Assembly: GCA_021804565.1 (NCBI GenBank)
Contig: JAJZHK010000001.1
Coordinates: 1 to 64,000, forward strand
Direction of reading: 5' to 3'
From: Pseudomonadota bacterium
Lineage (GTDB): Bacteria > Pseudomonadota > Gammaproteobacteria > Pseudomonadales > Moraxellaceae
DNA length: 64,000 bases
The notes below the pieces were generated by a model that did not search any database, was not told the DNA's origin, and was given only the letters and a program-made list of their open reading frames with translations. The position numbers were made by a program, and so were the translations under genes. Positions 33,413 to 35,449 of the stretch are shown here, piece after piece. Every line of letters starts with the position of its first letter. Position 1 is the stretch's first letter.

Positions 33413-35449
33413 ATGGCCTTAGACGCTGATGACGAAATTCTCCAGGATTTTCTCATCGAGGCTGGGGAAATCCTCGAAAGACTGTCCGAGCAATTGGTCG
33501 AACTGGAGCACAATGCCGCCGATAAAGCCTTGTTGAATGCCATTTTTCGTGGCTTTCATACGGTCAAAGGTGGCGCCGGCTTCTTGCAGCTGGATGCTCT
33601 GGTGACGGTCTGTCATGCCGCTGAAAATCTCTTTGACCTGCTGCGCAATGATAAATTGCCTATGCATGCCGGTTTGATGGATGTCATTTTGCAGGCTCTT
33701 GATGTCGTCAATGCCATGTTCAGGCAAGTGCAGGCGCATGAAGAGCCGACGCCGGCCGATCCTGCGCTTTTACAGACCCTGCATGAGTTGGCCAGTGGCA
33801 AGGCTCCGGCTCCGGCTCCGGCTCCGGCTCCGGCTCCAGCTCCAGCTCCAGCTCCAGCTCCAGCGTCGGATCTCATCAGTGACGAAGAGTTTGAACATCT
33901 GCTCGATGCCTTGCACACTCCTGCGGCGCCGTCATCGCCCGCTACAGCGCCAGCTTCTCCAGCCGCGGCCGGCGATGAGATCAGTGAGGCCGAGTTTGAG
34001 GCCCTGCTCGACCAGCTGCAGGGCAAGCCCTCGTCATCGCCGCCACCTTCTGCTCCGGTGCCGGTCCCCGGCCCGTCGGCCCATGGCAGTGACGAGATCA
34101 CCGAGGCTGAGTTTGAGGCTCTCCTCGATACCTTGCAAAAGTCACCCCAACCCGTTGCGGCTCGGCCTGCGGCATCGGTGGCTGTGCCGACGCCGATGGC
34201 AGCCGCTGCTGCGGCGCCCGCTCCAGTCGCTCCGGTACGCAGCGAGCCGGCCCACGAAAAAGCCGTGCCGGCTGACGTGGCTGAGACGACGGTGCGGGTG
34301 GATACCAAGCGACTTGACGACATCATGAATATGGTCGGTGAGCTGGTGCTGGTGCGTAATCGCCTGGTGCGTCTGGGCGTGCACCTGGCCGACGAGGAAA
34401 TGTCCAAGGCGGTGGCCAATCTCGATGTGGTGACGGCTGATTTGCAGATGGCGGTCATGAAGACGCGTATGCAGCCGATCAAGAAAGTCTTCGGCCGCTT
34501 TCCCCGTGTCGTCCGCGATTTGGCGCGCAATCTGCGCAAAGAGGTCGAGCTGGACCAGGTGGGGGAAGAAACCGATCTCGACAAGAATCTGGTCGAGGCG
34601 CTGGCCGATCCCCTCGTCCATCTGGTCCGCAATGCCGTCGATCACGGGATAGAGATGCCGGCGCTACGAGAGTCCCGCGGCAAACCCAGGGTGGGTCGTA
34701 TCGTTCTCTCAGCCCGCCAGGAAGGTGACCATATCGTGCTCTCCATCAGTGATGATGGGGCGGGCATGGATCCGCATAAATTGCGTTCCAAGGCGGTAGA
34801 AAAAGGTTTGATGGATGAGGAAGCGGCCGCTCGTTTGAGCGACAGTGAAGCCTTCAATCTGATTTTTTATCCGGGTTTTTCAACCAAGGATGAAATCTCC
34901 GATATTTCCGGGCGCGGTGTCGGCATGGATGTGGTCAAGACCAAGATCACCCAGCTCAATGGCAGCATCGACATCAATTCGGTCCTGGGTTCGGGGACCG
35001 AGATTGCGATCAAGGTGCCGCTGACCCTGGCGATCATGCCGACGCTGATGATCATGCTCGGACAGCAGACTTTTGCCTTGCCGCTGGCCTCGGTCAATGA
35101 AATCTTCCATATGGACGTCTCGCGTAAGAATGTCGTCGATGGGCAGGACGTCATCATCGTTCGCGAAAAGGCTTTGCCCCTGTTCTATATCAAGCGCTGG
35201 CTGGTGCCTGGGGGCTATGGCCTGCCGCAAACGGACAGCGCGCATGTCGTTGTGGTCAGTGTCGGTTCGAAAAAGATAGGCTTTGTGGTCGACCAGCTGA
35301 TCGGGCAGGAAGAAGTGGTCATCAAGCCTCTCGGGGCCATGCTGCAGGGCACGCCTGGCATCGCTGGCGCCACGATCACCGGCGATGGGCGTATCGCCAT
35401 GATACTCGATGTGCCCAGCATGTTGCGCCATTATGCCAACCGGCTATAG
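33413..35449 (+). CDS. cheA: Chemotaxis histidine kinase CheA
   Basis: CheA phosphorylates CheY and CheB under chemoreceptor control. The Hpt (P1) domain carries the phospho-accepting His49 in FHTVKGGAGF. P3 dimerisation starts near residue 297 (TTVRVDTKRLDDIMNMVGEL). The P4 ATPase has HLVRNAVDHGIE and DDGAGMD, followed by SGRGVGMDVVKTKI. The CheW-like P5 follows. Between P1 and P3 there is no recognisable P2 domain. Instead there is a linker of about 165 residues with an (Ala-Pro)10 stretch (131-150) and three copies of a helical motif I-S/T-x-x-E-F-E-x-L-L-D-x-L at 155-168, 190-203 and 229-242. Total 678 residues. Confidence 0.97.
   Translation: MALDADDEILQDFLIEAGEILERLSEQLVELEHNAADKALLNAIFRGFHTVKGGAGFLQLDALVTVCHAAENLFDLLRNDKLPMHAGLMDVILQALDVVNAMFRQVQAHEEPTPADPALLQTLHELASGKAPAPAPAPAPAPAPAPAPAPASDLISDEEFEHLLDALHTPAAPSSPATAPASPAAAGDEISEAEFEALLDQLQGKPSSSPPPSAPVPVPGPSAHGSDEITEAEFEALLDTLQKSPQPVAARPAASVAVPTPMAAAAAAPAPVAPVRSEPAHEKAVPADVAETTVRVDTKRLDDIMNMVGELVLVRNRLVRLGVHLADEEMSKAVANLDVVTADLQMAVMKTRMQPIKKVFGRFPRVVRDLARNLRKEVELDQVGEETDLDKNLVEALADPLVHLVRNAVDHGIEMPALRESRGKPRVGRIVLSARQEGDHIVLSISDDGAGMDPHKLRSKAVEKGLMDEEAAARLSDSEAFNLIFYPGFSTKDEISDISGRGVGMDVVKTKITQLNGSIDINSVLGSGTEIAIKVPLTLAIMPTLMIMLGQQTFALPLASVNEIFHMDVSRKNVVDGQDVIIVREKALPLFYIKRWLVPGGYGLPQTDSAHVVVVSVGSKKIGFVVDQLIGQEEVVIKPLGAMLQGTPGIAGATITGDGRIAMILDVPSMLRHYANRL
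33803..33862 (+). repeat. Hexanucleotide repeat (GCTCCG)5(GCTCCA)5 inside cheA
   Basis: Ten perfect 6-bp units, five GCTCCG then five GCTCCA, encode ten Ala-Pro pairs in the CheA linker. Because the unit is two codons, copy-number change alters linker length but not the frame. Confidence 0.95.

Follow-up and report, generated by a model that had tools for sequence, protein, structure and literature searches.

Which element, if any, stands in for P2 in a flagellar chemotaxis kinase that has none? The CheA encoded in the window (the whole stretch of DNA analysed here, 64,000 nucleotides) raises this question, as three copies of a short motif occupy its linker between Hpt and P3. P2 of E. coli and T. 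maritima CheA lies between the same two domains, and its job of docking CheY and CheB is the one proposed for the repeats; it is a folded domain, whereas this linker and its relatives hold one to four short helices in disordered sequence. A preliminary description of the locus had read the repeats as multivalent docking sites replacing P2 for CheY or CheB, with one peptide code serving kinase, phosphatase and motor.

The CheA of the window and its neighbours

The gene order of the operon is cheY cheZ cheA cheB motC motD parC parP cheW, with fliM about 11 kb upstream. We refer to its kinase as an F6-class CheA, a name taken from gene order and from Ortega et al. (PMC7184735) rather than from class models. 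The features that bear on the question are as follows.

22228..22257, + strand: N-terminal CheY-binding motif LNQDEIDALL of FliM (ORF 22150-23208; profile)
32136..32567, + strand: CheY, the likely docking partner, with R92, Q94, V103 and K117 in E. coli numbering (Pfam; residue comparison)
33354..33398, + strand: C-terminal CheY-binding tail of CheZ, SGQDEVDDLLSSLGF (ORF 32598-33401; Pfam, profile)
33413..35449, + strand: CheA, 678 aa, with Hpt, repeat-bearing linker, P3, P4 and P5 (Pfam, ORF, AlphaFold)
33875..33916, + strand: CheA repeat 1, ISDEEFEHLLDALH, residues 155-168 (translation; predicted helix 157-168)
33980..34021, + strand: CheA repeat 2, ISEAEFEALLDQLQ, residues 190-203 (translation; predicted helix 192-202)
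34097..34138, + strand: CheA repeat 3, ITEAEFEALLDTLQ, residues 229-242 (translation; predicted helix 231-242)
35459..36466, + strand: CheB, second candidate docking partner through its receiver domain (Pfam)
37997..38761, + strand: ParC-type ParA ATPase, of the rival pathway (Pfam, gene order, search)
38761..39396, + strand: ParP-type CheW-like protein, with HPLLAAT instead of the RPWLAGT consensus (alignment, profile search)

Translation of 33875-34138 yields three linker copies of I[ST]xxEFExLLxxL, at exactly the residues given in the preliminary description, and a Pfam scan of the window CheA, which found Hpt, H-kinase_dim, HATPase_c and CheW and no P2/CheY-binding domain, agrees with its statement that P2 is not recognisable. 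The FliM and CheZ motifs that it named are likewise present in the ORF translations: LNQDEIDALLHGV begins at about the seventh residue after the likely true start of FliM (22150-23208), and GQDEVDDLLSSLGF forms the C-terminal end of CheZ (32598-33401). In an AlphaFold model of the window CheA, made with 12 aligned CheAs, each repeat is an isolated helix, short like a FliM/CheZ-type peptide and predicted with modest confidence (mean pLDDT of 54-69 for the 10-residue blocks over the repeat helices, 28-41 for the other linker blocks of residues 131-300), and the linker is otherwise disordered. E233, F234, L238 and L241 of the third repeat are invariant among the 12 aligned CheAs.

Searches of the PDB with the window linker sequence gave nothing useful, and a fold search with the CheA model returned, among the matches listed, only CheA and other histidine-kinase structures. 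The Pfam SHOCT profile (PF09851) scored 25.4 bits on the whole window CheA and 27.9 bits on its N-terminal half, the cut-off being 27; no single stretch rose above the cut-off, and the best corresponds to profile positions 14-27 of 28 only.

Several smaller observations concern the window and its surroundings. The Trp of the RPWLAGT consensus is missing from the window ParP (residue 188, window 39322-39324; HPLLAAT) and from that of the sister locus L035 (HPLVAAT), and the HGxG tails that often follow the repeats elsewhere are absent from both CheAs. Four CheA-type P3 domains are present in G000, on contigs C22, C26, C50 and C80, and one of its CheAs outside the window (L135) has neither P2 nor a repeat match.

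Distribution of the repeats and of P2

We surveyed the class in 184 genomes drawn evenly, 141 of which match this CheA, and sampled 80 loci, mostly around best matches, plus 40 further CheAs, both chosen by us among the matches listed. A named-locus set was added from another collection; its 80 loci are the best 80 of at least 588 confirmed candidates and are for that reason biased to near relatives. Three duplicate CheAs were left out, as were CheA ORFs below 550 aa, among them fragments in L072, L084, L089, L097 and L119. The score matrix for calling repeats was itself trained on them, and the threshold was set at 7.4 bits: in shuffled linkers, the best score lies below this value in 99.9% of cases (largest 16.1).

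At this threshold, 67 of the 79 CheAs of usable length in the nearer class sample carry one to four copies each, and the same matrix found repeats in 0/39 of the further class set. All 77 CheAs of the named set, a best-match set that favours near relatives, are positive; its members come from Pseudomonas, Stutzerimonas, Marinobacter, Shewanella, Aeromonas and a Vibrionaceae MAG. The most frequent form is ITDDEFEALL, followed mostly by DQLHG or DELHG, at a median spacing of about 41 residues. Among 423 copies chosen by pattern, the F is kept in 416 and the second L of LL in 409. Across 66 linkers, hydrophobic residues make up 38.5% of positions inside repeats and 11% outside, and the only elements common outside repeats are Ala/Pro-rich 5-mers and degenerate repeat copies. 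The CheA linker repeats are real, class-wide and strongly conserved, a class-wide spread that the preliminary description had left out. In several linkers, L045, L049, L056 and L083 among them, a degenerate version of the repeat that has no I[ST] cap, for instance DxEFExMLD, stands upstream of the full ones.

A tree of 118 CheA cores requires three changes of the repeat, which falls in essentially one group (68 rows, SH-aLRT 93, 66 with the pattern). As all carriers form essentially one clade, the replacement of P2 would be close to a single evolutionary event.

By score, repeat and P2-profile match do not occur together in any of the 195 CheAs compared. A P2-profile match (profile built here) was found in 38, and repeats by score in 0/38, in linker or whole ORF; 144 carry repeats, and 0/144 of these match the P2 profile. 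A looser pattern matches 5/38 P2-bearing linkers, probably inside P2 itself. The remaining 13 have neither P2-profile match nor repeat, so that docking may be dispensable; one of them, L106, has a Pfam CheY-binding domain, and its extra whole-ORF repeat match sits in the kinase domain, the linker being free of repeats. Pfam detects CheY-binding in 1/117 CheA N-terminal halves, and no P2 in six named repeat-bearing CheAs (two from Pseudomonas and one each from Stutzerimonas, Shewanella, Aeromonas and the Vibrionaceae MAG). P2 occurs in 13 of 20 CheAs drawn from other classes; 0/20 have a repeat by score in the whole ORF, and 4/20 match the looser pattern.

A fused receiver domain, considered as another alternative to P2, was rejected, with no CheY match in the 195 CheAs and none by Pfam in 10 repeat-less CheAs; Pfam finds such a fusion in 4/7 P2-less CheAs from other classes.

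The literature treats this part of the kinase in several ways. A 2023 survey reports that over half of CheAs have no P2, calling the linker unstructured and P2 dispensable (PMC10782961). The P. putida CheA is drawn with a domain labelled 'YB (P2)' (PMC11978298), and a Vibrio review places a linker domain termed LID after a P2 domain (PMC7534058); these labels contrast with the related CheAs scanned here, relatives of those proteins, which are P2-less by Pfam.

FliM likeness and the docking face of CheY

The hydrophobic and acidic positions of the FliM CheY-binding motif (LSQDEIDALL) align with those of the CheA repeats, which differ in having F for I, an extra D-x-L turn often followed by HGxG, in being repeated, and in residing in the kinase rather than the motor. 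The CheZ tail (QDEVDDLLSSLGF) has the x-D/E-x-L-L-x-x-L ending in common with them. With a profile built from FliM alone, 43/67 repeat CheAs outscored 99% of 1248 other genes from the same loci; column-permuted FliM profiles gave a mean of 4.3, and 2/200 reached 43. In another comparison, 43/70 CheAs exceeded the 1% cut-off set by other genes with the FliM-only profile, and only 2/70 with the CheZ-only profile. Conversely, a CheA-only profile retrieved 46/53 FliM genes above the top 1% and only 2/60 CheZ genes. Since the CheZ profile misses CheA and the FliM profile retrieves it, the resemblance is to FliM. Reciprocal retrieval thus bears out the earlier claim that the repeats are FliM-like, and the proposal of one code for kinase, phosphatase and motor keeps its strong FliM-CheA half (43/70) but loses force on the CheZ side (2/70), so that it is weaker than stated.

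How much should be read into this likeness depends on what else the repeats resemble. Pfam SHOCT matches 49/117 CheA N-terminal halves at E<=0.01 (best 8.9e-9), and a GemA profile matches 13/117. The motif fits a generic capped helix, with a hydrophobic staple and a capping box. The SHOCT matches fit such a helix, and FliM likeness alone is therefore suggestive and not proof; we count it as one clade-level observation. These matches, and the two permuted profiles in 200 that match CheA as well as the FliM profile does, are what would be expected if the repeats were convergent capped-helix spacers without a partner, their FliM likeness being generic helix chemistry. We consider this very unlikely: the repeats are kept in nearly all clade members, with F in 416 and the second L in 409 of 423 copies, within a linker that otherwise varies freely, and a spacer would not need such conservation.

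A PDB sequence search with the FliM N-terminus gave nothing useful, and a literature search, with subscription papers mostly outside its reach, found the motif and motif strings in none of the titles and abstracts among the matches listed. A 179-aa ORF at L060 carries ISQDDVDSLM near residue 14, scores highly with both the FliM and the CheZ profiles, and is possibly another CheY-binding switch protein.

The CheY proteins encoded beside these kinases also bear on docking. Ortega et al. (2020, PMC7184735) report ten positions that differ between the CheY of CheA-F6 and the F6-like CheY serving CheA-F7, and map the changes on the E. coli CheY-P1-P2 structure; three face P2 (R92K, Q94N, V103A), and a further one, K117E, is a charge reversal in the helix that meets FliM. 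Among 144 CheYs beside a repeat-type CheA, we found R92 in 119, Q94 in 141, V103 in 143 and K117 in 129. The CheY that accompanies L106, the CheA with a Pfam CheY-binding domain, has K92, N94, A103 and E117. Variation exists within the repeat-associated set: K92 occurs in 25/144, position 117 is E in L099 and L102, Q in L062, N in L073 and A in L101, and the CheY of L097 has N94. With P2 missing from the repeat-bearing CheAs, the most natural interpretation would be a CheY face that switched from reading helices to reading P2, and the published changes at P2-facing sites fit CheY docking by the repeats. For V. cholerae CheY3, a study that includes FliM pull-downs reports the FliM N-terminus docked at alpha4-beta5-alpha5 and notes the CheY residues for CheA binding as conserved (PMC3774744).

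From these observations we favour, at a probability of roughly 0.58, the reading that the repeats are multivalent FliM-like docking helices for CheY, and perhaps for CheB, that stand in for P2 and that ParP may share. Where P2 would otherwise sit, the linker of this flagellar CheA class has a series of predicted capped amphipathic helices with the pattern I[ST]xxEFExLLDxL, often continued by HGxG. These would bind alpha4-beta5-alpha5 of CheY, and probably the CheB receiver, weakly and through several copies, raising the local concentration of response regulators beside the phospho-Hpt. By analogy with P2 in E. coli, phosphorylation would weaken docking and let CheY-P leave for FliM. ParP, where present, may use the same helices. 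CheB, present in all seven genomes tested, stays a candidate partner. The docking proposal of the preliminary description is upheld in part: the missing P2, the FliM likeness, the absence of any P2-profile match together with a repeat among 195 CheAs, the retention of repeats in genomes without ParP, ParC and/or CheZ matches (below) and the differences at P2-facing CheY sites between CheA classes speak for it, and its single-code component does not keep the strength that it was given.

If the repeats do dock CheY, a P2-less kinase need not be a dock-less one in this class, which many gammaproteobacteria use for chemotaxis, the CheY changes at P2-facing sites on the move to the enteric kinase would be explained, and there would be a simple way to test how one surface of CheY is shared among kinase, phosphatase, motor and polar anchor.

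ParP, ParC and other candidate partners

The preliminary description did not consider that this linker also has a domain for which binding to ParP, the protein that anchors the array, has been reported (PMC5706961, PMC7534058). In Vibrio, this CheA-LID is described as lying between P2 and P3, as occurring only with ParC and ParP, and as binding the AIF domain of ParP (PMC7534058, PMC5706961); ParP is reported to need it, and the V. cholerae ParP W305A variant to lose its interaction with CheA (PMC5706961). The repeats could accordingly be the LID, binding the AIF domain of ParP, which links the array to polar ParC, with CheY docking absent or elsewhere. Their position agrees: the window repeats lie in the linker before P3, as the reported LID does (PMC7534058, PMC5706961), in a CheA whose operon includes parC and parP, and repeats mostly co-occur with ParC and ParP. 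They are also the only common linker element found; a conserved LID could therefore scarcely consist of another element, and the two very likely overlap.

The distribution of ParP nevertheless departs from that of the repeats. A genome-wide profile search identified 11 ParP-less clade members, of which 10 keep one to four repeats and the eleventh keeps diverged copies, with at least 8 changes of ParP state on the tree. Unlike the reported LID, the repeats thus also occur in ParP-less genomes, a comparison made with the LID as described in those reports. ParP absence was defined by a score gap, absent genomes scoring 25-50 bits and sure ParPs 77-216, and ParC was called absent where nothing scored over 130 bits, as high as other ParA proteins score. 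By the latter definition the genome-wide search found no ParC in G001, G008, G020, G137, G152, G172 and G023, and the first six of these keep repeats although they are ParP-less too.

ParP-less members have fewer copies (mean 1.82, n=11) than those with ParP (2.49, n=47; p=0.037, from a statistic that ignores kinship), as a role for ParP would predict; we retain this as evidence of a shared role but give it little weight. This count treats 10 clade members as unknown. It includes as ParP-present L099 and L102, because a CheW-like ORF next to parC scores about 50 bits (the ORF of L102 being outside the genome-wide search list), and as ParP-absent G052, whose match at 49.8 bits is an unlinked two-CheW protein. 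A masked stretch interrupts the cheA of L097, a locus with two repeats and no ParP or ParC match, which was therefore left out of the count on the tree, and L098/L100 and L093/L094 each represent one genus.

If the Trp missing from the ParP of the window itself corresponds to V. cholerae W305, as we infer, ParP binding is doubtful here, and the CheA nevertheless carries three repeats. Nor does the presence of the HGxG tail follow that of ParP. As the ParP-binding part, the tail was rejected: tails persist in the ParP-less L087, L098, L100, L066 and L062, and 129/163 copies fit a loose tail pattern, which makes a helix C-cap likelier than a ParP-binding tail. Taking both sides together, we regard the identity of the repeats with a LID that serves ParP in place of CheY as unlikely.

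A combined arrangement, in which one helix set serves CheY/CheB docking and ParP anchoring and the two partners share or compete for sites, deserves tentative consideration, and we would put it well below an even chance of being right. Repeats persist without ParP but in fewer copies, and several copies would let both proteins bind; against this, an unsystematic look revealed no copy-specific pattern, and the difference in copy number is small and comes from the kinship-blind statistic given above.

CheZ is the remaining candidate, as the repeats might bind it and so place the phosphatase at the array. The cheZ gene adjoins cheA in most loci, and E. coli CheZ is reported to be localised by CheA-short (PMC7750401), but G020, G152, G131 and G086 carry repeats with no CheZ match at E<=0.001, G020 and G152 being ParP-less as well. 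The lack of a CheZ match in four repeat-bearing genomes makes this partner extremely improbable.

Returning to the docking helices, a speculative history can be sketched, which we hold to be possible and no likelier than that: the flagellar CheA class, seen here in Pseudomonas, Vibrionaceae, Shewanella, Aeromonas, Marinobacter and relatives, may have swapped its folded P2 for a multivalent array of short motor-like motifs, kinase and motor thus offering CheY variants of one peptide; ParP, as array anchor, may later have tapped these helices, so that polar tethering and CheY docking compete, and CheY may have been re-tooled at its docking face on passing to the P2-bearing enteric kinase.

Two linkers of unusual composition were observed. 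That of L073 holds three [GD][ED]ITDDEFEALLNQRD-like repeats without the DxL turn, with an upstream block LPEGVDPDG in common, and comes closest to the bare FliM motif; its genome, G172, has no ParC or ParP matches. The linker of L103 contains one repeat-like copy and, next to it, GAVADYIDDMLAGE, which resembles the consensus ALxxYLDxLL at the N-terminus of ParP; the genome of L103, G134, encodes ParP and ParC elsewhere on the same contig.
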